Below, in pieces: positions 2,701-21,529 of a stretch of DNA of 36,391 nucleotides. This DNA is from Treponema sp. (GTDB lineage: Bacteria; Spirochaetota; Spirochaetia; Treponematales; Breznakiellaceae): NCBI GenBank assembly GCA_031281555.1, contig JAITFK010000060.1, positions 1 through 36,391 on the forward strand, given 5' to 3'. The stretch's first letter is position 1; every line of letters begins with the position of its first letter. The position numbers were made by a program, and so were the translations under genes. Under the pieces are notes generated by a model. The model was not told the DNA's origin, searched no databases, and was given only the letters and a program-made list of their open reading frames with translations.

Positions 2701-3779
2701 GGCGTATCCTTATTTGATTTCAATTCTTTCAAAATAACCGAAGCGGTTTTCTCAAAAGTGTATTTTTTTATAAGAGTGTCGTTAAGATGTAAAAACTGCT
2801 GATCTCTGTCTGATAGAATTTGATGTAATTTGTCATGCAAATCTTTACTGCTGCCAGATTGAAAAAATACAACCGGAAAGTCTGAGTATACTTCTTTAAA
2901 AACTTTTATGTCCGAGATTAGAGCTTTAGTTCCCAATAACATGGCTTCAAGAGGAGGATAGCCAAAACCTTCATATAGGGAAGGTTGTACTAAAAGAGTG
3001 CTTTGCGCGAGCAGTTTCCATTTTTCGTCATCATTTATGTAACCGGAAAAAGAAACTTCGTGTTCCTTAAGCATATTAAGGCGTTTTGCGGTTTTTTTGT
3101 CTCTGGATCGAAATTTTTTCTGTGAACCAATAATAACAAGTTTATATTTTAAACCTTCTTTTCTGCATTGTATAAAAGCGTCTATTAATATATTAAGTCC
3201 TTTATGTTTCTTTATATTTCCCATAAAAATAACAGTTTTTTCCTTTTCTTTAATGTTTTTTAATTCTTTTTGAAACGGTACATTAACTGCGTTTGAGGCG
3301 TTTATTATATTTAATGTATCGCCAAGAAAATAATTAATTCTTAATTTCGAGAATTCAGAAACTGTAAAAATCGCTTTAGAAAGACGCGCCGCTCTTCTAT
3401 AGAAATAAAGCCGCATCCAAAATCCGGGCTTTGTAACAAGATTTGGTATATCTAAAAAAATTATATCATGAATTGTTGAATAGACGGGAACTTTTATGCC
3501 ATTTGGAATATTAAAATAAGGAGTGTAAAAAATATCTCCTGAATTTATTTTCTTAAGTATTGATTTTGGGAAAGCGAACGTATCGCGCAGGGAGAAAGGT
3601 TTTATTTTACAATGGATTACTTCGGCGCTGGAATTATCAGATATTTGAATTATTTTTTCTTTATCTCCAAGAAGAAAAATGGCGGCTCCCGAAGAAAGAA
3701 GAAAAGGAAGAAGCCCTTTAAAATAAGTCTCTATTCCTCCGCTTGAGTTAATATGCCTGCAATCAACTGTTATAATCAT
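2697..3779 (-). CDS. GT4-family glycosyltransferase
   Basis: This 360-residue GT-B glycosyltransferase opens with MIITVDCRHINSSGGIETY, the early glycine-rich acceptor-side loop. The central FMGNIKKHKGLNILIDAF begins the donor domain. PSLYEGFGYPPLEAMLLG near residues 262-279 is the classic GT4 donor signature with the two glutamates seven residues apart. There is no membrane segment. The gene overlaps the upstream fusion gene and downstream manC by 4 bp each (ATGA arrangement), so the three are translationally coupled. A GDP-mannose or GDP-heptose donor would fit the surrounding genes, but this cannot be shown from sequence. Confidence 0.88.
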   Translation of the reverse strand: MIITVDCRHINSSGGIETYFKGLLPFLLSSGAAIFLLGDKEKIIQISDNSSAEVIHCKIKPFSLRDTFAFPKSILKKINSGDIFYTPYFNIPNGIKVPVYSTIHDIIFLDIPNLVTKPGFWMRLYFYRRAARLSKAIFTVSEFSKLRINYFLGDTLNIINASNAVNVPFQKELKNIKEKEKTVIFMGNIKKHKGLNILIDAFIQCRKEGLKYKLVIIGSQKKFRSRDKKTAKRLNMLKEHEVSFSGYINDDEKWKLLAQSTLLVQPSLYEGFGYPPLEAMLLGTKALISDIKVFKEVYSDFPVVFFQSGSSKDLHDKLHQILSDRDQQFLHLNDTLIKKYTFEKTASVILKELKSNKDTP

Positions 3780-6469
3780 GGAATTTCAGCGTTCTTCCAA
3801 TTTGAAGCTTCGAATATTGAATCGTGGAGATATATCCATTGATCCTTTTTAATAGTAAATGTATATTTTCCGTGAGTATATGCCATAGGAGAATGATTCT
3901 TTGAAATTAATATTCCGTTTTCTTTTGGCTGTATGGAAATCGGATTACCCGTGAATGGATTCATAAGATTTTCAACTATGCCATTAAGCGTGAAGAAGGG
4001 GACATCCGCATTTGTCATAAAGTCATCGTTTATAGATAACGCGCCATGAGAATAAAAATCCTTAAACAAAAAAACAGGGTTATATGATTCCCTTGCTTCT
4101 CCATTAATAGATAATGGATCATTTGATATCAAACCGTTAATACTGTTTCCATGATCGGCGATAATTATTATTCTTGTATTATTATATACTTCGTTTTCCC
4201 GTAAATAATCAAGCCATTCGCCTATTTTTAAAAAGAACGCCGTATTTGAATGATAAACTCCGTTATTGGCATATTTCGTTTTTCCGATTTTTGAAGGGGT
4301 TTCCGTTGGTTTTAAAGTTTGTTCTTCAAGCCATACGGAATCATGGGTTGTTTCATTCGTGACCAGAAGCGCAGTTGGCGCGTTTGATTCAAAATTTGTA
4401 AGAACGGGTAAAAAATCCAAAACGGCGTATGAATGTATAAAGTTAATTATGGAATTTCCCATATCATCAGTACTCCAATACCAGCCCGCGTCGTAAATAA
4501 TGGGACGTAAAAGCGGATTATTCATTTTTAACAGGGAGAACCAGATAATATTGCGTATAATTCTTTGATATGTAAAATCTTTTTTTTCAGGGTCATTCTT
4601 TTCATACCATAAACCTGTATATTGTCTCAAAGTATTAAACGCGTTTATTTTTTCATATTTCTTATAAATGGAAATATCAGGTATCCATGAATAATTTGCC
4701 CATGAAGGATCGGTCACCGTAACATTGAACCCGGCGTTTACAAGCGACAGGGGTATTGTTAAAAGCGCCTGATTATGTTTTTCAACAAGCGGGATGTCGT
4801 TTTTAGCGTTCATCTCATATGGCGTATATTCATATCCTCCCCAAAGAGGCGGCGTTCCCATTAATGTGTGACTTGAAAATGAGGCGGTGTTTCTGTAAAG
4901 TGTAAAGCCGTCAAATTGTTTTTCCAACTGTGGATGTTCACTGAAAATAAGCGACACAAATCCATTCACCGCACCATCGGCCATAATAACAATCACATTT
5001 TGATTATTCTTTGAAAGGTTAAAAACAGGCTCGATCAACGCTTTTTCCTGATTATTTTCCATGTTAACGCTAAACAGCGTATATGCTTTATTAATTTTTA
5101 TGATATTGTATAAGGAAATAACTATAAAGAAAATAAATAATATTGATAAAAATGAGCTTAAATAAATAATTTTATTTTTATTAAGAAGAAAAAATATTAA
5201 GAATAATACAAGAATCGGAATTATTACGGAAAGAACAGCTTGAGTAAAGCCGGTCTCCAACACGCCAGTCGTATTAAAGTTAAAAAAATTATTTATTGTA
5301 CCATAATTTCCGCTGAAAGCGACAGTATAAATCGAAAATATCAATGCGAGAAAAACAAAAGTAAAAACTAAAATTGACTTAATCCGATCAGAAAAAAGGA
5401 GAAATATACTTAACGGCCAAAGAAAGAAAAACCCAAAAAAGAATAAATTTGAATAAACAATATAAGTAAAAGGAGAAGCGTATTTTTCTATATTACAGAA
5501 TTCATCCGGTGAAGACGCGATGACAGAGGAAGGAATATATAAGCCGGCAAGCAGGAAAAGTGTAAAACATGAAAGGATAAAAAGGACTAACATATTTCTT
5601 TTGTCATGAAATATTTTAACAAAAAAACGTTTATACAGATAATTAAAATATTTAAGAAATAACGGTAGAAAATAGAAAAGCGATACGATTAATGAAACAA
5701 GCAATCTTTTTTTAAATACACGTAATTTCATAACAAATAACAAATAACAAATAAAAACGGCGAAAATGACACAAAAGATAATATATAAAACTTTTAAAGG
5801 ATTCTTTATTTTGTAAAATATATTTTTGACAAGAGAAAAAATATTATTAAGCGTCCAGTACAAAACAAGCGCAGCGGGCGAATTATAAAGTAATATCAAA
5901 AAAATAAGCGCCATTCCGAAAACCTGAATTCTATCGCGTATGGAAAGGCTATGGGTATATATGACCCCCGCAGCGCAATTAATCAAGGTCATTATTACAG
6001 GAAGAATATTAACAGAAAAACCCCCGATATGAAAAAGCGAATCGGGAGCCCCGATATCTTTTATAAATAAAAAACTTACACCGCGCAGAACCTCAAGGTT
6101 TGACAGGAATGAATATGCCGCGATGAAAAACGGAATCTGAACCAAAAGCCCTATAGAACTGCGAATAGAGTAAAGGGGATGATAATGATTCTGCCGATAA
6201 TAAGTTGAAAGGATCATGAATTGTTCATCGCCTGAAAAAACGGATTTTATCTTTTTTATTTTAGGTCTTAATCGGTTAATTATATCACGTTCCGTAGATT
6301 GCCAGCGTTCCGCCATTATATACAGCGGAAGCGACAGAAAAGAAACCGTTAAACTGACTCCAAGAACTGAAAATATTATATTTTTGAATGTCTTAAAAAA
6401 GAAAACATACACAAATTCTATTATTTGAACAATGGGGGATATGATAACCGTATAGAGAAAATTAAACAT
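3776..6469 (-). CDS. YidC/Oxa1-like domain fused to an alkaline-phosphatase-superfamily (LtaS/EptA-like) transferase, paralogue A
   Basis: This 897-residue fusion has a YidC-like core at residues 1-222. The markers are RPKIKKIKSVFSGDE, QIPFFIAAYSFL and SPAALVLYWTLNN, as in the YidC2/Oxa1 family. About seven further hydrophobic segments follow at residues 226-457. Residues 489-897 form a sulfatase/phosphatase-fold domain with NVIVIMADG (Asp498), a candidate nucleophile Thr535 in SSHTLMGTPP, TTH at 707-709 and ADHG at 772-774. Five core helices plus seven more would place the catalytic domain outside the cytoplasmic membrane, like LtaS and EptA. Ser43 sits where true YidC proteins carry the groove arginine. 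GGAG lies before the ATG, next to a CCGGTTAACCGG palindrome. Family knowledge suggests transfer of a phosphorylated head group; the actual donor is unknown. Glycan or lipid decoration with AEP or another phosphoryl group is inferred from the neighbours. Confidence 0.8.
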   Translation of the reverse strand: MFNFLYTVIISPIVQIIEFVYVFFFKTFKNIIFSVLGVSLTVSFLSLPLYIMAERWQSTERDIINRLRPKIKKIKSVFSGDEQFMILSTYYRQNHYHPLYSIRSSIGLLVQIPFFIAAYSFLSNLEVLRGVSFLFIKDIGAPDSLFHIGGFSVNILPVIMTLINCAAGVIYTHSLSIRDRIQVFGMALIFLILLYNSPAALVLYWTLNNIFSLVKNIFYKIKNPLKVLYIIFCVIFAVFICYLLFVMKLRVFKKRLLVSLIVSLFYFLPLFLKYFNYLYKRFFVKIFHDKRNMLVLFILSCFTLFLLAGLYIPSSVIASSPDEFCNIEKYASPFTYIVYSNLFFFGFFFLWPLSIFLLFSDRIKSILVFTFVFLALIFSIYTVAFSGNYGTINNFFNFNTTGVLETGFTQAVLSVIIPILVLFLIFFLLNKNKIIYLSSFLSILFIFFIVISLYNIIKINKAYTLFSVNMENNQEKALIEPVFNLSKNNQNVIVIMADGAVNGFVSLIFSEHPQLEKQFDGFTLYRNTASFSSHTLMGTPPLWGGYEYTPYEMNAKNDIPLVEKHNQALLTIPLSLVNAGFNVTVTDPSWANYSWIPDISIYKKYEKINAFNTLRQYTGLWYEKNDPEKKDFTYQRIIRNIIWFSLLKMNNPLLRPIIYDAGWYWSTDDMGNSIINFIHSYAVLDFLPVLTNFESNAPTALLVTNETTHDSVWLEEQTLKPTETPSKIGKTKYANNGVYHSNTAFFLKIGEWLDYLRENEVYNNTRIIIIADHGNSINGLISNDPLSINGEARESYNPVFLFKDFYSHGALSINDDFMTNADVPFFTLNGIVENLMNPFTGNPISIQPKENGILISKNHSPMAYTHGKYTFTIKKDQWIYLHDSIFEASNWKNAEIP

Positions 6470-6477
6470 TAATAACT

Positions 6478-6489
6478 CCGGTTAACCGG
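6478..6489. promoter_or_regulatory. 12-bp perfect palindrome before paralogue A
   Basis: CCGGTTAACCGG lies in the 36-bp gap between the two fusion genes. In the minus-strand mRNA it can fold as a 4-bp CCGG stem with a TTAA loop. Its 3' arm supplies the first GG of the GGAG ribosome site of paralogue A. It could lower translation of A relative to B, or be a protein site. The short stem makes either reading tentative. Confidence 0.35.
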
Positions 6490-6505
6490 CAGTCAGCGCG
6501 AATGA

Positions 6506-9178
6506 TCATGGATGTTTCTCCGGTCTAGTCCAATTCTTTTCATCAAAGATACTATCGCGAACATAATATGTGTTATTCGGGTTAATTTCAATTTCAGTTT
6601 TATTCCTATCACTGACCCTTTCTATAAGAATTAACTGCGGATTGCTTTTCCAGTCGATTGCGGTAATTGAATTGCCGGTAAAAGGATTTACAGGATCTTT
6701 GATTAATTCCTTCATTGCGAGAGCGGGAACATCAGCATTTGTCATAAAAGTCATATCGGTTTTCATATCGCCTTTAACATTAAAATCTTTTACCAATAAT
6801 ACCGGATTAAAATGATCAACATGAAACGGTAAACTGGTTTTTGTCACATAAGTAACGTCTAAAAGGCCGTGGTCAGAAACCAGAATAATGCGAGTGTTAT
6901 CGTATACCCCATTTGATTTAAGAAAATCAAAATACTCAGACAGGCGTTTTATTGCAGCCGCATTGGTATGATACCAGACTTCCTTGCTAAAAGGACTTTT
7001 GCCATAATCTGTTACAGTAAGTCGGGGTTTGTAAAGAGGCGCCTGCAAAAACCAATTTTCATGGGTTGTGTTATTTACCATTAAGACAGCAGATTTTTCC
7101 TCCTCGGACTCAAAATCTGTTAATTCATCCAGAAAATCCAGTACAGAATAACCGTTCAGGAAAAGCCTCATTCTATACTCAGAGAATGGCGCACACCATG
7201 AGCCTGTATAGTAAACAGCTTGTCTGAAAGCAAGAGGTATCTCACGAAATATCGCATACCATAAAATATTACGTTTAAGGACTTCGCTATGCGGCGGTAA
7301 AATTATATTATTCCGCTTTAACCATAAATTTGTATATGCTCCATCAGTTATATAACCAGAAACATTGCCCTCATTATCAAAAACACGCAAATCAGGAATC
7401 CAGTTGTCATCAGCATATGGGGGGTCTGTTATGGTAACAAAAAAACCAGATTTGGATAAAATCGCAGGCATCATGAGCAGAGCTTCGTTTCTTTTATTGT
7501 GAAGGGAAACATCCGAACGATTATTTATTCCCTCAGGTGTATATTCGTAACCGCCAAATATGGGGGGCGCTCCGCCTCTTGTCCATCCGTTAAACGTAAC
7601 GGTATTTGGATAATAAATAAACCCGTCATATTTTTGATATAACTCGGGACTTTCTTCAAATATATACGGAACAAAAACACTTTCAGCCATATCAAGCATG
7701 ATTACCAAGACATTTTTTCCTGTTTTGGAAAAATGAAAGATGGGAAAAATTGAATCCTCGGTCTTTTGTTCGGGCGTATAATACTGTGAAAGTTTTTTAA
7801 ACTCTGCTTTAATAAAGAATAAATTTTTTATGGAAAACGGAACAAGAGCGACAAATAATGTTATAACCAGAAAGGAGAGTATTTTCTTGGCTCCGCGTAT
7901 ATAAATAAAGAACAAAAGCGAAAAAACAATTGCCATAACTAATATGTTTATGGATATTTCACGCAAGTTATGGCTTACAGTTCCCGTAAATACCAAATCA
8001 GTAGAAATTAGTCCGTAATTTCCCGGAAAGATAAACATATTACAAAGCGCGGAAAAAGAAACTATTACCATTAATATCGAAATTATTTTCTTTACTTTTT
8101 CTGAAAAAAGAAAATAAATCATTAACGGCCAAAAAACAAATAGTCCAAATGATTGAATAGCCGTATTAAAAATAAAAAAGAGCGGCGATTTAATATTGTC
8201 AATAAAAGAAAATTCCTGCGGAGACGCGACGATAAGCATAGATGGGAGAAAAATACCGGTTGCCATCCACAGAATAAGGAGAGAAAACATAAGAATAATC
8301 ATATTTTCTTTTGGCGTCCATAAAATATGTTTTATTTTTTTTGTTAAATGCGTTATGTAAGGGATTAACCATGGGATTATTCCGATAATAATAGAAAGAA
8401 AAGCGATAAGAACTCGTATTTTTATATTACCGTGGTGTTTAAACATGATATAAAACAATAAAAAAGACGCGCAGAATGAAATAACACCAAACAGGATAAA
8501 TTTTTTGTTTTTGAGCGGAAATTTTAAATATCCTTCTTTTACCAGCGAAAAAACATTATTAAGCGTCCAGTATAGCACCAGTCCGGACGGAGTGTTATAC
8601 AGTAATACCAGAAAGACAAGAGCCATGCCGTATATTTGCACTTTATCTTTTACGCCAAGACCACGCGTATATATCGCTCCCGCCGCGCAGTTTATGAGCG
8701 TCATCAATAAAGGTAAAATATTTATTCCGCCTAAAACAGGCAGCAGCGCGTCAGGTTTTCCTAAATCATTAATAAATAAAAACGACATTCCCTGAAACGC
8801 CTGTAACTGTGAGAGGTACGAATACGCGGCGATAAAAAACGGGACTTGAATTAACAATCCAAAACTGCTTCTCATTGCGTAAATCGGATGATAATGGTTT
8901 TGACGGTAAAAAACGGATAAAATCATATAGCGCTCATCGCCGCTGAAAACCTCTTTTATTTTCTTTATTTTGGGAGCGAGCCGTTTTTGAATATTTCGTT
9001 CTATTTCCTGCCATTTTTCCGCTACCATGTAAAGCGGCAAACATAATATACTGACTGCGCCCGATATAAAAATAATCGACAGTCCCGTTTCTTTAAAAAG
9101 TTTCTGCGCGAATACAAAAACAAATTCTAAAATTTGCGTTATTGGATAAATTATAATATTGTAGAAAATATTTGGCAT
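6506..9178 (-). CDS. YidC/Oxa1-like domain fused to an alkaline-phosphatase-superfamily (LtaS/EptA-like) transferase, paralogue B
   Basis: This 890-residue paralogue of the downstream gene is collinear with it throughout. The YidC-like core at residues 1-220 has APKIKKIKEVFSGDE, QVPFFIAAYSYL and TPSGLVLYWTLNN. About seven extra membrane segments lie at 226-455. The catalytic domain at about 487-890 has NVLVIMLDMAES (Asp496), candidate nucleophile Thr533 in GWTRGGAPP, TTH at 704-706 and SDHG at 769-771. Ser43 again replaces the YidC groove arginine. The YidC-like part is very similar between A and B, while the segment after the first catalytic Asp differs (DMAES here, DGAV in A), so the two may use different substrates. 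It follows the GDP-heptose genes after a 62-bp gap with an AAGGAT motif upstream. The transferase role is inferred from fold. Confidence 0.8.
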   Translation of the reverse strand: MPNIFYNIIIYPITQILEFVFVFAQKLFKETGLSIIFISGAVSILCLPLYMVAEKWQEIERNIQKRLAPKIKKIKEVFSGDERYMILSVFYRQNHYHPIYAMRSSFGLLIQVPFFIAAYSYLSQLQAFQGMSFLFINDLGKPDALLPVLGGINILPLLMTLINCAAGAIYTRGLGVKDKVQIYGMALVFLVLLYNTPSGLVLYWTLNNVFSLVKEGYLKFPLKNKKFILFGVISFCASFLLFYIMFKHHGNIKIRVLIAFLSIIIGIIPWLIPYITHLTKKIKHILWTPKENMIILMFSLLILWMATGIFLPSMLIVASPQEFSFIDNIKSPLFFIFNTAIQSFGLFVFWPLMIYFLFSEKVKKIISILMVIVSFSALCNMFIFPGNYGLISTDLVFTGTVSHNLREISINILVMAIVFSLLFFIYIRGAKKILSFLVITLFVALVPFSIKNLFFIKAEFKKLSQYYTPEQKTEDSIFPIFHFSKTGKNVLVIMLDMAESVFVPYIFEESPELYQKYDGFIYYPNTVTFNGWTRGGAPPIFGGYEYTPEGINNRSDVSLHNKRNEALLMMPAILSKSGFFVTITDPPYADDNWIPDLRVFDNEGNVSGYITDGAYTNLWLKRNNIILPPHSEVLKRNILWYAIFREIPLAFRQAVYYTGSWCAPFSEYRMRLFLNGYSVLDFLDELTDFESEEEKSAVLMVNNTTHENWFLQAPLYKPRLTVTDYGKSPFSKEVWYHTNAAAIKRLSEYFDFLKSNGVYDNTRIILVSDHGLLDVTYVTKTSLPFHVDHFNPVLLVKDFNVKGDMKTDMTFMTNADVPALAMKELIKDPVNPFTGNSITAIDWKSNPQLILIERVSDRNKTEIEINPNNTYYVRDSIFDEKNWTRPEKHP

Positions 9179-9240
9179 AATTCAATTCCCATCCTTTTTA
9201 CAGTTTTAAATTTTCATAATATTAAACAGGTAAAACCGCA

Positions 9241-10527
9241 TCATAAGTCCTCTCGCGATATAAGCAGTTCTGTAAAATCACGCAAATTGGCAAATGTTTT
9301 TATGTTGTTCATACCTTCATCCGGTTTATCATTTGATAAAAATACCGGAATACAGCCGGCGTTTTTTCCGGCGTTAACATCGCGCATATCGTCACCCACC
9401 ATATATGACCGCGAAAGATCGATATTGTATTGCGTCGCGGCTTTTAAAATCAATCCTGGTTTTGGCTTGCGGCAATCGCAGTCGATTTTGTATTCCGGAC
9501 GCTCGCCTGGAAATCCTTTGTCAGGGTGATGCGGACAGTAAAAAAGGTCGTCAATATACGCGCCACGCTTGCCTAAATCGGTCTCCATTTTCATGTGGAT
9601 TAAATCAAGCGTTTCAAAATCAACTTCACCCCGGGCTATAACAGGCTGGTTTGTGATAACAATGGCAAGATATCCAAGACTGTTGATTTTTTTTATCGCT
9701 TCCGCCACGCCTTCGATTAATTCAAAATCTTCCGGTTTAGTTATAAAATTATTTAATTTATTGATGGTTCCGTCCCTGTCCAAAAAAACACATTTTTGCT
9801 TTACAGAAAGGTTTTTTTGCCTTACAATTCCGTTCTCAATATCTGATGTAACCTGCGCATAACGCTCAGGTGTACCCATGTCCTTTATGTATTCGGGAGT
9901 AGAATAGGCAAATACTTTACCATTGGATATAGAAGGTTTTAGCATATCGCGATCAAGATCGACTTTTTCCTTTGATTGGGGACAGTTTTTCAAAAATTCG
10001 GCGGACAGGATATGAATTCCGGCATTTACCTGATTTTTATAATATGTTCGCTTGTCTTCCTTGTTTAGCCAGCGTGTTACCTGATTATTGCCGTTACTAA
10101 AAAGAACCGCACTGTCGAAAGGATGGCTGTTGGGATGTGCCGCAAGCGTAACATGGGCTTTCTTTTCCAGATGAAAATTTATCATCCGATGAAAATCAAT
10201 ATCAAAAATAAGGTCGCCGTTTAATAAAATAAAATCATCGGAAAGATTAGTTATTTTATATAACGCTCCGGCGGTACCAAGCGGTTCTGTTTCATTATAA
10301 TAAGAAATGTTACACCCAAATCGCTCACCATAATTAAAATATTCCTTAATATGTTCGCCAAGGTGTCCAATTACAAGAATAATTTCAGTTAAACCGTTTT
10401 TTTTGAGACATTCAATCTGATGTTCAAGTATCGGCTTGCCGCAGATTGGAATCATCGGCTTGGGAATGTCGCTCGCTATCGAAGAAACGCGGGTGCCTTT
10501 ACCGCCGGCCATTATTACAACTTGCAT
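9241..10527 (-). CDS. hddC-gmhB: Bifunctional D-glycero-D-manno-heptose-1-phosphate guanylyltransferase / heptose-1,7-bisphosphate phosphatase (HddC-GmhB fusion)
   Basis: Residues 1 to about 235 are a sugar-1-phosphate nucleotidyltransferase: MAGGKGTRVSSIASDIPKPM at 6-25, ETEPLGTAGAL and LLNGDLIFDID follow. Residues about 243-428 are a HAD phosphatase with the nucleophile motif FLDRDGTIN (Asp250, Asp252). It also has the zinc-loop pattern YCPHHPD with CDCRKPKPG, and the late motif MVGDDMRDV, all typical of GmhB. The pair would remove the C7 phosphate of heptose-1,7-bisphosphate and then make GDP-D-glycero-D-manno-heptose. The start codon directly abuts the gmhA stop. HddA and GmhA just upstream complete the pathway. 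Fusion of the two steps is notable but both halves look intact. Confidence 0.9.
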   Translation of the reverse strand: MQVVIMAGGKGTRVSSIASDIPKPMIPICGKPILEHQIECLKKNGLTEIILVIGHLGEHIKEYFNYGERFGCNISYYNETEPLGTAGALYKITNLSDDFILLNGDLIFDIDFHRMINFHLEKKAHVTLAAHPNSHPFDSAVLFSNGNNQVTRWLNKEDKRTYYKNQVNAGIHILSAEFLKNCPQSKEKVDLDRDMLKPSISNGKVFAYSTPEYIKDMGTPERYAQVTSDIENGIVRQKNLSVKQKCVFLDRDGTINKLNNFITKPEDFELIEGVAEAIKKINSLGYLAIVITNQPVIARGEVDFETLDLIHMKMETDLGKRGAYIDDLFYCPHHPDKGFPGERPEYKIDCDCRKPKPGLILKAATQYNIDLSRSYMVGDDMRDVNAGKNAGCIPVFLSNDKPDEGMNNIKTFANLRDFTELLISREDL

Positions 10528-11154
10528 TTAAAAGAAATAATTCTCCAGCATCTGGCACAGGCAATGATATACAGGCAGGTGCAGTTCCTGTATCTTGAAA
10601 GTTTCCGTTTCCGGCACAATGATACTCACATCGGCAATATTTCTCAACGCGCCGCCGGATCCGCCCGAAAGGGCGATAATATTCAGTTTTTTCGCCTTTG
10701 CGACAGCCGCCGCGTACAGAATGTTTTTTGAGTTTCCGGAAGTGGATATCGCGAGCAGCACGTCTGTTTCCTTTCCGTAACCGTAAACCTGCTGGGCAAA
10801 GGTGATATTTCCGTCAATATCGTTGATACACGCCGTGTTCAGCGATGCGTGACCGGACAGCGCGATTGTTGGAAGTCCGGGCTGCATACGCGGAATTAGG
10901 TATTCGGCGATTTCAATATTAACTTTTTTAATATCCATAATAAAAGAATCCGGCAAGGCCCTCTTCTTTTCAAAAGTTTTCATCAATTCGCCGGCAATAT
11001 GTTCGGCATCGGAAGCGCTTCCGCCGTTTCCAGCTATCAGCAGTTTACCGCCGTTTGTATATGAAGCCGAGATAATGTCAAATGCCGCGCTTATATCGTT
11101 TTTGACGGGTTCCAGCGCAGGATAACGCTGTATTAGTTGTTGTATATAGTCCAT
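10528..11154 (-). CDS. gmhA: Sedoheptulose-7-phosphate isomerase
   Basis: This 208-residue SIS-domain protein carries the GmhA motif [16 protein letters not shown] at about residues 42-57, and [10 protein letters not shown] at about 135-144, which binds the sugar phosphate. It would turn sedoheptulose-7-phosphate into D-glycero-D-manno-heptose-7-phosphate, the first step of heptose synthesis. Length matches the family (about 190-210). Its ATG overlaps the end of hddA by 22 bp and its stop abuts the hddC-gmhB start, so the three heptose genes form one translationally coupled group. Confidence 0.92.
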
Positions 11155-12203
11155 CCTTGCGTCCCTGTTTCAGTAAAACTTGGTGTCAATACCATACCTT
11201 CTTTTTCCTTTAGCGCCCGGATGAGCGCGATCCTTTTGCAGGGGTTACAGTATATCATCATGAAGCCACCGCCGCCTGCTCCTGAAATCTTAGCAGATTC
11301 CGCGCCATTGTCAAGCGCGTACTGGTACAGTTCATCTAAAAATGAATTGGAGATTGAAGCGGCGGCGTTTTTCTTTGCCAGCCAGCCGTTTAAAAGACAG
11401 CCTGAAAAACCCTTGAAATCTCCTTTTAACAGGGCTTCTTTCATAAATACCGACTGCCTTTTCATTTCGTGCATGCTTTCAATACTTTTTGCGTCGCCTT
11501 TTTGCGTATGCTTAATTTGTTCGTTAATGATATTCGCGCTTTCCCTTGAAACTCCCGTATAGTATAAAATTAACGATGCCTCAATTTCATTTCTAATCCA
11601 GCGTTTTAGTCGAAGCGGATTTACAATTACGCGCTCGCTTTCATAGAACTCCATAAAATTAAAGCCGCCGAAAGTCGCGGCGTATTGATCCTGTTTGCCT
11701 CCCGCAAGCCCTATATCCTCACGTTCAATTTTACAGGCAAGGGCGGCAATGTCGTATTCACCCAAGGGCAGGTTAAGCCATTCCTCGAACCCCTTGATTA
11801 TTGCCACGACCATTGTGGAAGATGAACCAAGACCGGAACCGGCGGGCGCATCCGAGTAAGTGGTCATTTTAAAGGAAAGCGGTTTTTTGACAAAATCGGA
11901 AATAATCCTGTTGTAGATGCCGCAATGAAGCTGCAGGACAGAGGAAATCGGAAGTTTTTCTTCCGCTTTGTATTCTTCCTGTTTGCCCAAATCGGCGGCG
12001 ATAAATTCTACTCTGCCTGAATCATTCGGTTCGATGGTACAGTAGGCGTACATATCGACCGTGGCGTTTAACACATAACCGCCAAAACGATTATAGTAAT
12101 CGGCTATGTCGGTTCCGCCGCCGGCAAGTCCCAGCCGCAACGGGGCTTTGGATCGAATTATTAAGGGGAATTTTGCAGTTTCTATTTCCGGTATGTTATT
12201 CAT
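11133..12203 (-). CDS. hddA: D-glycero-alpha-D-manno-heptose-7-phosphate kinase
   Basis: This GHMP-family kinase has the N-terminal [20 protein letters not shown] and the glycine-rich ATP loop [32 protein letters not shown] follows in the C-terminal part. It phosphorylates heptose-7-phosphate at C1 to the alpha-1,7-bisphosphate, which commits the product to the GDP-heptose branch instead of ADP-heptose. I chose the ATG at 12203 because GGAAG stands seven bases before it. An upstream in-frame TTG at 12230 would overlap the pntC-phnW end and has no clear ribosome site. It directly follows the phosphonate genes. Confidence 0.92.
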
Positions 12204-12207
12204 TACA

Positions 12208-14055
<1,848 letters not shown>

Positions 14056-14096: not shown

Positions 14097-15242
14097 TTAA
14101 TCGAACGGTTCCGTAACACGGAGATTATGTTCCTCAATGAATTTCATAAAAGCCGCCTTGTTTTCCTGCGGCGTTGTTTTGGGGCGTCCTAAATCCTTAC
14201 GCGCGCCTTTTTTTACTTTTACTTCTATAAATGTAAGCCCTTCGTTCTTTTTAGCTAAAATATTTTTTAATTCTTCTTTTATTTTTGCCTGATAAACATG
14301 AATATAGCCGCAGGCGCGCGCGACCGCCGGAATATCAATAAGGGGGGCTATCGTAGGCTGACCGCCGACAGAATCATGAGCCGCGTTATTAAGTACAATG
14401 TGGCAATAGTTACGCGGTTTTTGCGTCCCAACAGCGGCAAAGGAACCCATATGCATAAGCGCCGCTCCGTCTCCGTCAAGACAGGTAACCTGCAACTGCG
14501 GTTTTTGCAAAGCGATAGACAGCGCTATGGATGACGTGTGCCCCATTGATCCTACGGTAAGAAAATCGCGTTCATGACCGGAAGTTGTTTTATCGCGTAA
14601 CTCGTACAATTCGCGTGATATCATACCCGTAGTGGAAACGATAATTCCGCCCCTGTGCGCGGCGATTTCCTCGATTGCTTCTTCGCGCGTCATTACCGCG
14701 TCATGTTCTTCCTTTTTTTGAAGGATATAGGGCGCAAATGTGTCCTTGCGTATAACAAACGCATAAGAGGAACCCGTTTCGGCAATTGTTTTAAAACAGG
14801 TTTCAATCTGGCTGTTTACGCTGTCCTCATCTTTTTCCAGTACCGCGCAGGGGATACCCATGCTTTCAAGGAGTGAGCAGGTAACTTTGCCCTGTTTGAT
14901 ATGCTGAGGTTCGTCATGTACGCCAGGCTCTCCGCGCCAGCCGATAACAAGCACTAAAGGTATACGGTACACTTCGTTATCCGCAAGCGAGAGCAGCGGA
15001 TTGACCGCGTTGCCGATGCCTGAGTTTTGCATATACACCAGCGGAATGCTGCCTGTGGCAAGATGATACCCGCAGGCAAGACCGACAGCGGCTCCTTCGT
15101 TTACCGCGATAATATGGTTTTTCTTATCAGAGTGATCGGTAATATACGCGCAAAAATCTTTTAAAAGTGAATCAGGTACGCCCGAGAAAAAGCCAACTCC
15201 CTTTTCTACAAGTTTACTATAAAAATACGCCGCTTCTATCAA
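14097..15242 (-). CDS. ppd: Phosphonopyruvate decarboxylase
   Basis: This thiamine-diphosphate enzyme decarboxylates phosphonopyruvate to phosphonoacetaldehyde and pulls the unfavourable PEP mutase step forward. The 381-residue protein has the N-terminal catalytic segment VNEGAAVGLACGYHLATG with Glu49. The C-terminal cofactor site has GDGAALMHMGSFA from 257 and LNNAAHDSVGGQPT ending near 297. Length matches the family. The start is TTG, directly after the TAA of pepM with no gap (TAATTG), so expression should depend on translational coupling. The next in-frame ATG falls inside the conserved domain, which supports the TTG start. Confidence 0.92.
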   Translation of the reverse strand: MIEAAYFYSKLVEKGVGFFSGVPDSLLKDFCAYITDHSDKKNHIIAVNEGAAVGLACGYHLATGSIPLVYMQNSGIGNAVNPLLSLADNEVYRIPLVLVIGWRGEPGVHDEPQHIKQGKVTCSLLESMGIPCAVLEKDEDSVNSQIETCFKTIAETGSSYAFVIRKDTFAPYILQKKEEHDAVMTREEAIEEIAAHRGGIIVSTTGMISRELYELRDKTTSGHERDFLTVGSMGHTSSIALSIALQKPQLQVTCLDGDGAALMHMGSFAAVGTQKPRNYCHIVLNNAAHDSVGGQPTIAPLIDIPAVARACGYIHVYQAKIKEELKNILAKKNEGLTFIEVKVKKGARKDLGRPKTTPQENKAAFMKFIEEHNLRVTEPFD

Positions 15243-16547
15243 TTATTTGCCGCCCGGAATTAATTCAAGTATTTCTTTAATAGGCATACAAACTGAATCC
15301 GCCTCTAACGAGCGCTCATTTTGCAAGATCATTTTTGCGGTGTTTACCATCGCGGGATATGCGGAACGGAGCATATGATTTGCGTAGATAATAATATTCG
15401 CGCCCCATGAGGCAAGTTCTTTTTCTGTAAACTTATTATACGTTGTAGGAACAAGAACAATCGGCACATGGGGATATTCGGCGCGGAAAAGCGAACAAAA
15501 TTCTTTAATGTCATCGCCTGTTTTTTCCTTGCTGTGTATCATAACGCCGTCAGCGCCCGCATCGACAAAAGCGCGCGCCCTTTCCAGCGCATGTGAGACA
15601 GGGAAACCCGCAATCAAACTTTCAAGACGCGCGATAATCATAAATTCTTTGGTAACCTGCGCCTTTTTGCCGGCTTTGATTTTGTCGCAGAATTCGGGAA
15701 TAGGGCATAATTCCTGATTTACATCAGTCCCAAAAAGCGAATTTCTTTTAAGACCAGTCTTGTCTTCTATGATAACCGCGGATATGCCGTTTCGCTCAAG
15801 GGTTTTTACAGTGAAGGCAAAATGTTGACCACCCGTATCCCCGTCAAAGATTATCGGCTTTGTCGTACATTCCAGAATATTGACCAGGTCATGGAGGCGT
15901 GTAGTGAGATCAACCGCTTCAATATCGGGTTTTCCTTTACTTGTCGAGTCGGTTAAACTTGACGACCACATACCGTCAAAACTGTGCAGCCCGTCTTCTT
16001 TCTCAATTTCAAGGTTTTCTATTATCAAACCGGACAAACCCGAATGCGCTTCCATAATTCTTACCAGCCGTTTTGTCTCAAGGAGGCGGCGCAATGTTTT
16101 CAGGCGAATTTCCGGCGTTGTTCCGATGGAACGTATCGCCTCATTGATTGAGGATGAATTAACTCCCGCAGTATAGGGGATCTCGATGACTTCGCCGCCG
16201 AGTTCTTTCATCACCGCAAAAACTTCATCGCGTTCTTTTTGCAAAGGGCCGCTTTTCCAGTCATCTCCGTGAATGATGTAATCGGGCTTTAACTTTTGCA
16301 GATTAGGAACATAACTCCATTCTTCCTGCGGTATTACTCTGGCAACACCCTTAATATTTTCAATAACATCTTTTCTCTGTTCGTAGGTTAAATAGGGCAG
16401 ACGTTTATGGGACGCTATAGCGGAATCGGTCAGCAGTCCTACGGTCAATTCACCCAGTTTTGCGCCCTTGCGTATAATATTGATTATTCCGGGGTGAACA
16501 ATATCACCGCGCATTCCGAGATATACCGTTTTTGTACCTGTGGTCAT
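15243..16547 (-). CDS. pepM: Phosphoenolpyruvate phosphomutase with N-terminal cytidylyltransferase-like domain
   Basis: The C-terminal domain (about 150-434) rearranges phosphoenolpyruvate to phosphonopyruvate, forming the carbon-phosphorus bond. It has FDGDTGG with the metal-binding aspartates at 235-237, and the diagnostic EDKTGLKRNS at 261-270. Residues 1 to about 140 are a RfaE/TagD-type nucleotidyltransferase fold with YLGMRGDIVHPGIINII and a late NSSSINEAIR. The usual HxGH catalytic motif reads HPGI at 18-21, so the second histidine is Ile21 and activity is doubtful. The gene overlaps the upstream glycosyltransferase by 4 bp and leads directly into ppd. Confidence 0.94.
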   Translation of the reverse strand: MTTGTKTVYLGMRGDIVHPGIINIIRKGAKLGELTVGLLTDSAIASHKRLPYLTYEQRKDVIENIKGVARVIPQEEWSYVPNLQKLKPDYIIHGDDWKSGPLQKERDEVFAVMKELGGEVIEIPYTAGVNSSSINEAIRSIGTTPEIRLKTLRRLLETKRLVRIMEAHSGLSGLIIENLEIEKEDGLHSFDGMWSSSLTDSTSKGKPDIEAVDLTTRLHDLVNILECTTKPIIFDGDTGGQHFAFTVKTLERNGISAVIIEDKTGLKRNSLFGTDVNQELCPIPEFCDKIKAGKKAQVTKEFMIIARLESLIAGFPVSHALERARAFVDAGADGVMIHSKEKTGDDIKEFCSLFRAEYPHVPIVLVPTTYNKFTEKELASWGANIIIYANHMLRSAYPAMVNTAKMILQNERSLEADSVCMPIKEILELIPGGK

Positions 16548-18459: not shown

Positions 18460-19278
18460 TCATTGTTCAGTGATAAACGAAAAAAAAGAACGGCCTCTTT
18501 CTTTTTTTTCTTCAGGAATTTTATAGGTAAGCTTATGGCAAAAAGACACATTCTTTACCATCTCCCATAATTCATCGTTAAATTCCGAAAATAATAATTT
18601 TAGTTGTAAAAAATGCGGGTTCTGGTTATTACGATACGGTATTTTATTGAATATTTCGGCACACTCAGGGTCATTCTGTATAATAGCCTGAAGAAGATAA
18701 TGAAACATAAAGTAGTCTACATATGTATTGTTGAGTCTCCAGTATTCAAGGTAAGCGCATAACAGCTTATACAGTAAAACGTTATTTCTCTTTGCCGCGA
18801 TAATAAACCAACTTGAAACCGGGCAATATATATCATCCAGAGGGCTCCTGAAAAAGAATACATTCTCTTTCAAAAGGTCTTCGGGAACAGGTTGTGTAAA
18901 AAAAACCGTTGAATCAAACCACAATCCGCCATAAGTATACAACAGATAAACACGTAAAATATCGGCAAAATGCGTAGTCTGAATGTACCCATTTTTATGT
19001 TTCTCAATAACAAAAGAGGGAAGAGAAACATAAGTTTCCAGATTATCGCTTGTTATTACAATGATACGACATCCCGAAGCATATTTTCCCGCCGATTTAA
19101 TACAGGCCTTTACCAAAGCGGGAACTTCTTCCTTACCTCGAAACCAGGAAGTCCAGAAAATAAAATCTTTTTCACCGATGTCATTTTGAGGACGAGAAAT
19201 ATTAAATTGACCTTGATGTTTTTTGTAAAATCTTTTCAGATAACGAAAAGATGATTTTGCGTACACATGGTCCGCCAT
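18460..19278 (-). CDS. GT32-like / capsular-polysaccharide-synthesis glycosyltransferase, start uncertain
   Basis: The protein resembles the Caps_synth / Gly_transf_sug families: FWTSWFRGKEEVPALVKACI, then FADILRVYLLYTYGGLWFD with a DxD-like metal site (WFDST). From the first ATG it has 272 residues. The frame stays open upstream all the way to the preceding stop. AAGAGG (19398-19393) stands six bases before an ATC codon at 19386, giving a 36-residue basic, hydrophobic extension beginning SKFRNLFIIFKTFG. That looks like the usual N-terminus of this family, whereas the ATG at 19278 has no ribosome site. The true start is therefore probably 19386 with a non-standard AUC codon, or an ATG has been lost. 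Confidence 0.82.
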   Translation of the reverse strand: MADHVYAKSSFRYLKRFYKKHQGQFNISRPQNDIGEKDFIFWTSWFRGKEEVPALVKACIKSAGKYASGCRIIVITSDNLETYVSLPSFVIEKHKNGYIQTTHFADILRVYLLYTYGGLWFDSTVFFTQPVPEDLLKENVFFFRSPLDDIYCPVSSWFIIAAKRNNVLLYKLLCAYLEYWRLNNTYVDYFMFHYLLQAIIQNDPECAEIFNKIPYRNNQNPHFLQLKLLFSEFNDELWEMVKNVSFCHKLTYKIPEEKKERGRSFFSFITEQ

Positions 19279-19398
19279 TACATTGTCGGTAAGACGTTTG
19301 TAAATAGACGTGATGAGAATTTTTCGTATGCCGTGAAACAGGCCGAAGGTTTTAAATATAATAAAAAGATTACGGAATTTACTGATAAGGGGCCTCTT

Positions 19399-20571
19399 TT
19401 ATCTCAAATAAAGTTCTGTTGTTATTCTGTCAACTACTTTTTCTGACGCAGTGCCATCTCTGAGTATTCCGACTTTTTGGAAGAATTCTTCAAGCGCTCT
19501 TAAATAAATTTTTGTATCAAAATGAAGCATCTTTTCCAACAATTCAACGCTGTTCATCGCGCATGGGAAAGGCAGTAAAAACAAGTCAAAGTAAAAATCT
19601 CTTTCCTTTTTGTATTGCTCATAATCGCTAATATATAAAAACACCGGTTTATTCATTAACGCGCATTCATACATACAATCTGAGTAATCGGATATTAACA
19701 TATCACAGGTCAATAAAAGTTCCTGCATATCGCTATAGTTACTTGCGTTAAGTATTTTGTCATTATATGCAAAAAATTCCGATTTTTCCGAAATATTGGG
19801 GTGCAATCTTATCAAAAACACCCAAGGAGCTTTTGTTTGCTCACTCAGGCCATTCAATATCAGTTCATAATTTATATTATACACATCAACGCTAAAATTA
19901 TCCCGAAATGTAGGCGCGTATAATATAATTTTTGTATTATCGGCGATATTAAAATGTTTTTTCACTGTATCTTTTATATTATTATTCTGATTAATAAGTA
20001 TATCGTCTCTCGGAGAACCACATTCAAATATCTCGCCGTTATACCAAAAAGCCGATCGATATAACTGACTTGAGAATTTACTGTCGGATAGCAATAAATT
20101 TATTAAACTTGAATCATGTTTTGCCTGTTTCACATAATAGACGGATAACTGTTGTTCAACATCTTTTTCGATTTTTTTTAAATTAACTGTCCCATGCCAT
20201 GTATGTATGTAGTATTGCGCTTTTCGTTTTCTGACATAAAGCTGTTTTCTGCAGTTATCAATCCACATCTTTGCGGTTACTTCTTCATAAACCGCGCGAA
20301 TGCTTTTATATGGAACCGTTTTTATTGTCCGGGGGAAATTATCATGGTATTCCGGTCTAGCTGCCCATACGAGCGCATAATCAAGCTTACGCCGTATAAT
20401 TTCTTCGGCAATGTATTTAGGGTTTTCTCCATAGCCCTTTCCGTTGAAATTTTGAATAAAGATTTTGTTTTTTTGTATAGGAAAAATACGGAATACATAA
20501 TATAAGGTTACCATTATCCAATAAACGGTTATACCTTTTATTTTACCTTGCAGGAAAGAAATACGGCTCAT
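19399..20571 (-). CDS. TagB/TagF-like CDP-glycerol glycerophosphotransferase family protein
   Basis: This 390-residue protein belongs to the Glyphos_transf family (PF04464), whose known members move glycerol- or ribitol-phosphate from CDP-linked donors. Visible motifs are the catalytic-type YYIHTWHGTVNLKKIEKD, LLSDSKFSSQLYRSAF, CGSPRDD, IILYAPTFRDNF and LISDYSDCMYECALMNKPV. The start is ATG at 20571, one base after the GT92-like stop; an in-frame TTG six codons earlier is less likely. No CDP-glycerol or CDP-ribitol synthesis gene is in the window. A CMP-AEP donor is conceivable since CMP-AEP is made in the same operon, but this is a guess. Confidence 0.85.
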   Translation of the reverse strand: MSRISFLQGKIKGITVYWIMVTLYYVFRIFPIQKNKIFIQNFNGKGYGENPKYIAEEIIRRKLDYALVWAARPEYHDNFPRTIKTVPYKSIRAVYEEVTAKMWIDNCRKQLYVRKRKAQYYIHTWHGTVNLKKIEKDVEQQLSVYYVKQAKHDSSLINLLLSDSKFSSQLYRSAFWYNGEIFECGSPRDDILINQNNNIKDTVKKHFNIADNTKIILYAPTFRDNFSVDVYNINYELILNGLSEQTKAPWVFLIRLHPNISEKSEFFAYNDKILNASNYSDMQELLLTCDMLISDYSDCMYECALMNKPVFLYISDYEQYKKERDFYFDLFLLPFPCAMNSVELLEKMLHFDTKIYLRALEEFFQKVGILRDGTASEKVVDRITTELYLR

Positions 20572-20572
20572 A

Positions 20573-21529
20573 TTAAATATCGTTTCCAAATCGCAGCTTC
20601 AAATTATCTTTGATTTTTTGTATGTATTTGTCCATAATCGTATCATTTTTTATCTCATTACGATCTCTTTCATGAAATTCATTCATTGATAATTTTCCGG
20701 GCGAGAAGACCCTTCCCAAATCCATTCTGTCAGTAAATTCTTCAAGTGATTTACAGGCATAATGATTACGGAGTATTCCCTCATGCAGGATCGGACGATC
20801 CAAAGATGACACGATGTTTTTTTCTTTGCGGGTGTTTACGCTGCGTTCCCCGTTAAAGTAATTCGCTATATGCGCGGTTTCCATATAAAAAACATGCCGG
20901 GGATTTACAATGGATTTTACTCCGTGATTAATCGGATGCTCATACTCTGAATGATCTTTAAAACGCTCAATCACAAGACCTTTGGTTTTTTTCTGATGTC
21001 CGCCGCTGCCGTATGCGATCTGATTAATTTCAATTCCGGGAGTATCTTCAAAACCGTACAAAAATTCAGGTATTGTTTTTGACGCGGTCGGCACCAGGAA
21101 TTCATCAATATCAATAAAGGCAATCCAAAACGAGGAATATCTGTATCGTGAAATCATTTCATTATACGCGACAAGCTGCCGGCGTTTTCCGGGGAAATAA
21201 TTATATTCAACAATACCGTCTTTTATATAAGATTCAAGATAGCCGCGCAAGTTATCGGTAGATTCATTATCGTATATGAAGAACTTCTGTACTCCTACAA
21301 GCAAATGGTATTCAATCCATTCGGCAATATACGAGGTTTCATTCTTTACAATTGCCGCAACAGATAAATAAAGGGGGAAATCAGAAGCGGTATATTTCCT
21401 GTCTTTTTTAAACTGCTTTATTCCGGCGATGTATTTTCCAAGACGACCGCTGCATATAAGGCGAATAAAATAACGTAACTTATAAGGCGTTATTCCCCGG
21501 ATTAGATGTTTGAAACGACTTTTTTTCAT
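20573..21529 (-). CDS. GT92/GT2-like glycosyltransferase (DUF23-type)
   Basis: This 318-residue protein begins with a basic N-terminus, then the GT92-type block YLSVAAIVKNETSYIAEWIE, GVQKFFIYDNESTDN and WIAFIDIDEFLVP with the metal-binding DxD. Later it has a His-rich acceptor region (ILHEGILRNHYACKSLEEF). It should be a cytoplasmic, metal-dependent transferase. It sits between GT8 and TagB/F-like genes with an 11-bp gap and a 1-bp gap. Donor unknown; galactose is common among characterised GT92 enzymes but cannot be asserted here. Confidence 0.83.
   Translation of the reverse strand: MKKSRFKHLIRGITPYKLRYFIRLICSGRLGKYIAGIKQFKKDRKYTASDFPLYLSVAAIVKNETSYIAEWIEYHLLVGVQKFFIYDNESTDNLRGYLESYIKDGIVEYNYFPGKRRQLVAYNEMISRYRYSSFWIAFIDIDEFLVPTASKTIPEFLYGFEDTPGIEINQIAYGSGGHQKKTKGLVIERFKDHSEYEHPINHGVKSIVNPRHVFYMETAHIANYFNGERSVNTRKEKNIVSSLDRPILHEGILRNHYACKSLEEFTDRMDLGRVFSPGKLSMNEFHERDRNEIKNDTIMDKYIQKIKDNLKLRFGNDI

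Follow-up and report, generated by a model that had tools for sequence, protein, structure and literature searches.

The contig JAITFK010000060.1 of a termite-gut Treponema relative (assembly GCA_031281555.1) was analysed over 36,391 nucleotides, a stretch referred to here as the window. It carries two adjoining genes, P1 and P2, on the minus strand (Table 1). Each encodes a protein in which a domain resembling YidC/Oxa1 proteins, which are known as protein insertases, is joined to an alkaline-phosphatase-superfamily catalytic domain. Both fusions had been proposed in an earlier note made from the DNA letters, and both open reading frames are indeed present. The two proteins are paralogues, with 40% identity across their entire length. 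Dozens of further genomes, as well as named isolates, encode full-length fusions with the same domain order, which rules out an assembly artefact. Judged by structural modelling, P1 and P2 are complete LtaS/EptA-like transferases to which a YidC-like module has been added.

Architecture and catalytic domain

The full P2 chain was modelled with AlphaFold2, using 93 homologues from the fetched loci (predicted local distance difference test, pLDDT, 91.6; predicted TM-score, pTM, 0.88), and Foldseek recognised folds resembling both YidC and the alkaline phosphatase superfamily. After an N-terminal surface helix, the model contains five plus seven membrane helices, matching the twelve that had been predicted from the sequence, and positive-inside counts agree with the proposed location of the catalytic domain outside the cytoplasmic membrane. 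The suggestion that the YidC-like bundle itself forms the membrane part of the transferase was not borne out. Residues 221–470 form a separate seven-helix bundle between the YidC-like and catalytic domains, and residues 221–890 fold confidently when modelled without the YidC-like part (pLDDT 91.4, pTM 0.87). Their best match in the PDB is full-length PbgA, a relative of LtaS/EptA with five helices. MCR-1 and EptA also align over the membrane and catalytic parts, although in these alignments the parts are placed differently relative to each other (overall root-mean-square deviation, rmsd, 14–18 Å). Replacement of the transferase bundle by a YidC bundle is thus ruled out. The bundle folds with the catalytic domain alone, so the transferase is complete in itself and the YidC-like region is an addition to it. 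In agreement with this, two genomes encode the YidC-like and LtaS-like proteins in separate genes that lie close together (L124 and L125, discussed below).

The relationship of the N-terminal module to YidC is well supported. The PF02096 profile matches residues ~32–219 with 71.5 bits in P1 (E 1e-19) and 76.8 bits in P2 (E 2.5e-21), exceeding the gathering cut-off of 35 in both proteins, as the earlier assignment implied. The N-terminal part of P2 also aligns with the Bacillus halodurans YidC structure 3wo7 (Foldseek target TM-score 0.72, rmsd 3.5 Å, 23–24% identity). Scores against TIGR03592 (74.6 and 75.5) lie just under the curated cut-off of 84.3, and this sub-threshold result is the one observation in favour of misannotation or chance resemblance. 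Set against the PF02096 scores, the 3wo7 match, and recurrence in dozens of genomes, that explanation deserves almost no credence.

In profile searches, the catalytic domain of P1 and P2 proves divergent but can still be recognised. The P1 domain scores 23.5 bits against PF00884 (E 4.2e-5; hmmscan, cut-off 25) and passes the cut-off in the genome search as a 27-bit frame sum. P2 reaches 12.8 bits, and the best Pfam match in its catalytic part is PF01663 (Phosphodiest, E 0.002). Among relatives, 23 of 31 catalytic domains match PF00884 at E <= 0.01, the best at E 4.9e-11. Foldseek searches of the PDB with the C-terminal part of P2 returned LtaP, PbgA, LtaS, MCR-1, EptA, and phosphonate monoester hydrolases, with E about 1e-7 for LtaP, LtaS, PbgA, and EptA. 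VIA-align superposed P2 residues 486–890 on phosphonate monoester hydrolase and LtaP with Z 20–21 and rmsd 4.0–4.2 Å over 297–319 residues (for LtaP 4uop, Z 20.2, 4.0 Å, and 297 residues).

Nine residues are invariant in all 93 homologues: D496, T533, R652, H706, D769, H770, K797, D798, and D816 (P2 numbering). P1 holds every one of them, and the set includes the catalytic Asp and Thr named in the earlier note (D498/D496 and T535/T533). We take T533, D496, D769–H770, and H706 to correspond to the Thr nucleophile, the Asp/Glu and Asp-His metal ligands, and the further His of LtaS, a pairing made from family knowledge rather than by residue-by-residue superposition. Sulfatases and phosphonate monoester hydrolases use a formylglycine nucleophile derived from Cys in a C-x-P-x-R motif. 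The C/S-x-P-x-R motif is absent at the nucleophile in 93/93 homologues, all of which have Thr there, within the sequence T-x-x-G-x-P. This rules out a sulfatase or formylglycine hydrolase identity. A Thr nucleophile without C-x-P-x-R groups the family with LtaS/EptA-type transferases, apart from sulfatases and phosphonate hydrolases, and together with the structural matches it supports the head-group-transferase fold that had been proposed. The catalytic domain could nonetheless trim or recycle head groups by hydrolysis, as a phosphodiesterase, phosphatase, or phosphonate monoester hydrolase. In favour are the PF01663 match of P2 and a VIA-align Z of about 20 to phosphonate monoester hydrolases, as high as that to LtaP. 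The missing formylglycine motif and the presence of multiple copies in glycan-synthesis operons, which suit synthesis better, make this unlikely.

A YidC-like module without the groove charge

A positive charge in the membrane groove is strictly conserved in YidC/Oxa1/Alb3 insertases (PMC8920935). It is present as Lys or Arg in 13/13 canonical YidCs of the relatives, whereas 93/93 fusions have Ser, Thr, or Asn at this position, as do stand-alone copies of the YidC-like protein. When 41 YidC domains were placed in a tree, a single branch with 100/100 support separated the 13 canonical spirochaete YidCs from the 28 fusion or stand-alone domains. The Treponema genome studied here also encodes a separate, canonical YidC with the groove Lys (contig C62, E 2.3e-59).

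As read from the alignment, loss of the groove charge argues against insertase activity of the module. It might still be a true insertase or chaperone tethered to the transferase, inserting, for example, the protein's own helices or a partner. The full YidC core fold is retained, and Escherichia coli YidC can dispense with its groove Arg provided that position 517 is occupied by an aromatic or hydrophilic residue (PMC8920935). The equivalent residue, W204, is invariant in the family, and a hydrated groove may consequently persist. Yet a canonical YidC is available in the same genome, none of the fusions has the Lys or Arg found in every true spirochaete YidC, and confinement of the fusions to surface-glycan loci points to a specialised function. 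A tethered insertase is accordingly a decidedly improbable explanation.

Of the three parts of the protein, the YidC-like one is conserved best. Mean identity to P2 across 92 homologues is 59% for this part, 41% for the catalytic domain, and 28% for the bundle. Such strong conservation would be unexpected for a passive anchor. The ratio of nonsynonymous to synonymous substitution (dN/dS) between P2 and an orthologue with 82% identity is low everywhere (0.096–0.14 by domain), and no single domain stands out. To our knowledge, no biological job has been assigned in bacteria to the lipid scrambling that YidC/Oxa1 proteins perform in vitro. Lipid scrambling has been observed, in vitro or in simulations, for every Oxa1-family protein tested, YidC among them (PMC10491306).

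Gene partners and distribution

In most loci, the fusion adjoins a gene for a membrane-anchored, CDP-glycerophosphotransferase-like companion of ~415 amino acids (53/77 related loci; for example, L035:12673-13923). The companion consists of an N-terminal membrane helix with the sequence YIDPGTGS and a PF04464 core, to which the profile match is confined (30–36 bits, cut-off 22.1); NCBIfam gave no match at E 1e-8. Among 100 sampled genomes, 35 have both fusion and companion, three the fusion alone, two the companion alone, and 60 neither (Fisher p 5e-21, although this and the other association p-values are optimistic because the sampled genomes are related). All five exceptions are draft genomes with completeness of 87% or less.

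In two loci (L124 in genome G183, L125 in G267), the functions are split among three adjacent genes, for a stand-alone YidC-like protein (238 and 286 amino acids, respectively), the companion, and a separate LtaS-like PF00884 protein (607 and 594 amino acids); the Pfam test was applied to L124. In L125, the phosphonate genes lie on the strand opposite to the trio. Whether a natural fission or a pre-fusion state, this arrangement is strong evidence that the YidC-like protein, companion, and LtaS-like protein act together. It also bears on a simpler role for the module, as a docking site or scaffold for the companion or another partner, with the bundle taking donor lipid from the outer leaflet unaided. 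The adjacency of the three split genes, the near-perfect co-occurrence with the companion, and the strongly conserved C1 hairpin and surface of the YidC-like part all fit this explanation. The groove position, however, is polar in every copy rather than hydrophobic, which hints that the groove has been retained for something. Docking alone is a credible possibility, though one we do not favour.

The loci also encode phosphonate synthesis or cytidylyl activation. PepM occurs in 13/38 fusion genomes and 4/62 others (p 6e-4), and a cytidylyltransferase fused to a CobD/HisC-like, pyridoxal-phosphate-dependent (PLP) enzyme in 16/38 and 6/62 (p 3e-4). One or the other is present in 25/38 fusion genomes and 10/62 others (p 9e-7). 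The expectation that pepM and pntC would lie nearby is correct for the window and fails as a general rule. Since PepM is found in only 13/38 fusion genomes, the family is not bound to phosphonate alone, and a strict tie to phosphonate synthesis is ruled out by the 25/38 that lack PepM. The cytidylyltransferase–PLP fusion (609–677 amino acids) is present in many PepM-less loci (L115:8870-10696, L062:12742-14730, L055, L074, L122, and others). Possibly, it makes CDP-ethanolamine or CDP-aminopropanol from phosphoserine or phosphothreonine, replacing the PepM pathway.

The YidC–transferase fusion was found in 38/100 sampled relatives, often in two to five copies per genome. More broadly, matches were detected across Spirochaetota in 51/247 genomes and 17/125 genera; a few genomes, such as G183 and G267, have the stand-alone form only, and one genus (g70, family f22) is a well-populated group among the matches. 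A contig scan gave spirochaete matches and, among the matches listed, one contig labelled Tannerella sp. This contig, from a metagenome-assembled genome, carries a full-length fusion (L103:9998-12703) and reflects either transfer outside the spirochaetes or mis-binning.

Around P1 and P2, the window holds genes for GDP-heptose and phosphonate synthesis and several glycosyltransferases (Table 1). In a close relative (G031) whose fusion is 82% identical, an intact companion lies between the fusion gene and hddC-gmhB. To judge from the letters at the same position in the window, the gene has apparently been reduced to a 13-codon remnant, and no second copy was found in this 82.7% complete assembly. 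The companion may have been lost in this strain, may lie in the missing part of the assembly, or may have been replaced by the TarF-like protein, which has no meaningful blastp similarity to it. The gene for that protein stands in a row with Caps_synth and GT92 genes (18460-21529), which points to a polysaccharide with phosphate in addition to the phosphonate. At the contig end (36248-36389) is a tandem array with three copies of a 46-base unit (GTCAGCAGGTGGGTATGCGAAGCATAGTCAACTGCG...).

Table 1. Positions of the fusion genes, their domains, and associated features (window coordinates unless a locus is named)
Feature	Position	Strand	Remarks
GT4 glycosyltransferase, directly after P1	2697..3779	(-)	start overlaps P1 end
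P1, 897-aa paralogue of P2, same architecture	3776..6469	(-)	catalytic set D498, T535, H709, D772, H773
P1 catalytic domain, residues ~481-897	3779..5029	(-)	
P1 YidC/Oxa1-like domain, residues 1-221	5807..6469	(-)	limits from alignment to P2
P2, 890-aa fusion	6506..9178	(-)	YidC-like domain, seven-helix bundle, LtaS/EptA-fold catalytic domain
P2 extracytoplasmic catalytic domain, residues 480-890	6509..7741	(-)	
P2 own membrane bundle, residues 221-470	7769..8518	(-)	seven helices
P2 YidC/Oxa1-like domain, residues 1-220	8519..9178	(-)	groove Ser43 where true YidC has Lys/Arg
Putative companion remnant, 13-codon open reading frame	9206..9244	(-)	MMRFYLFNIMKI, then stop; apparently the companion's first and last codons with the middle deleted in frame, from position and short similarity
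GDP-heptose genes: HddC-GmhB fusion, GmhA, HddA	9241..12230	(-)	
PntC-AEPT (CTP:2-aminoethylphosphonate (AEP) cytidylyltransferase and AEP transaminase)	12208..14043	(-)	full-length relative of T. denticola Tde1415 (6PD1/6PD2), E 8e-283
Ppd, phosphonopyruvate decarboxylase	14097..15242	(-)	TIGR03297, 514.6 bits
PepM, phosphoenolpyruvate mutase fused to cytidylyltransferase-like domain	15243..16547	(-)	
TarF-like PF04464 phosphotransferase	19399..20589	(-)	sole PF04464 protein found in the assembly
Split three-gene version	L124:6556-10431; L125:5733-9844		beside PepM-Ppd-PntC-AEPT

Proposed role and relation to known systems

With moderate confidence, P1 and P2 can be regarded as LtaS/EptA/OpgB-type transferases of surface-glycan head groups, in which the YidC-like module serves the same reaction, through docking of the companion, passage of the donor lipid, or both, rather than protein insertion. 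The loci support this in that they encode glycan synthesis together with cytidylyl activation of aminoalkyl head groups. Inside the cell, the PF04464-like companion would draw on CMP-AEP, or on a CDP-aminoalcohol in other genomes, to charge a lipid or a lipid-linked acceptor. The YidC-like module would hold the membrane-anchored companion, pass the donor lipid through the membrane along its groove, or do both. Outside, the Thr of the fusion would form a covalent intermediate and move the phospho- or phosphono head group from the lipid donor to a surface glycan, presumably made by the surrounding heptose and glycosyltransferase genes. In this strain, the head group would most likely be 2-aminoethylphosphonate.

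Several observations weigh against this proposal. Sequence similarity of the catalytic domain to LtaS is weak, the best PDB profile matches (E about 1e-5) being mostly sulfatases, and phosphonate monoester hydrolases equal LtaS in structural score; both leave room for the hydrolase function considered above. The companion is absent beside P1 and P2 and was not found in the incomplete assembly, and Brachyspira-like loci have no companion within 18 kb. A scrambling or docking role for the module is a tentative proposal, drawn only from its fold and the published behaviour of its relatives.

A bolder form of the transferase proposal is that the YidC fold has been turned into a dedicated flippase or scramblase for head-group lipids within a surface-glycan transferase. 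Inside, the companion would charge a lipid from CMP-AEP or a CDP-aminoalcohol, the groove would pass it across, and the LtaS-like domain would transfer the head group outside, forming a channelled pathway confined, as surveyed, to spirochaetes. We consider this a speculative and rather doubtful possibility. Whichever role applies, this clade provides a natural test of whether the YidC fold has been recruited for lipids: its groove has lost the charge, its members are joined to a lipid-head-group transferase, and they are better conserved than the enzyme they accompany. The fusion may also account for the final steps of cell-surface phosphonate tailoring, downstream of CMP-AEP, which have been missing so far. 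For automatic annotation it is a caution, as the NCBIfam and Pfam matches of P1 and P2 indicate YidC insertases.

The combination of a YidC-like module with a head-group transferase appears to be undescribed so far. A full-text literature search, whose coverage excluded subscription journals, found no description of this architecture; as far as that search reached, a known enzyme class here carries a module not previously linked to it. P1 and P2 share with LtaS/LtaP, EptA/MCR, PbgA/YejM, and OpgB an alkaline-phosphatase-superfamily domain that follows a helical bundle and lies outside the membrane, the Thr nucleophile position, and the Asp-His metal pair. They differ in the added 220-residue module of YidC/Oxa1 fold, in a bundle of seven helices rather than five, in sequence (10–16% identity), and in their tie to a PF04464-like companion. 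With YidC/Oxa1/Alb3 proteins they have in common the whole five-helix core with the C1 hairpin, but the fusions have lost the groove Lys/Arg, form their own clade, and are sited in glycan operons. The companion resembles the TagB/TagF/TarL CDP-alcohol glycerophosphotransferases in scoring above the PF04464 cut-off, but it does so through its C-terminal core only and has an N-terminal membrane helix of its own.

The closest known parallel to the locus is the pnt locus of Treponema denticola, where the Tde1415 PntC-AEPT makes CMP-AEP (PMC6697681). The full-length match between this enzyme and that of the window suggests the same CMP-AEP logic. In the accessible part of that paper, the transferase that uses CMP-AEP is left open, LicD-like enzymes and glycosyltransferases are noted nearby, and neither a YidC–transferase fusion nor a ‘sulfatase’ is mentioned (PMC6697681).

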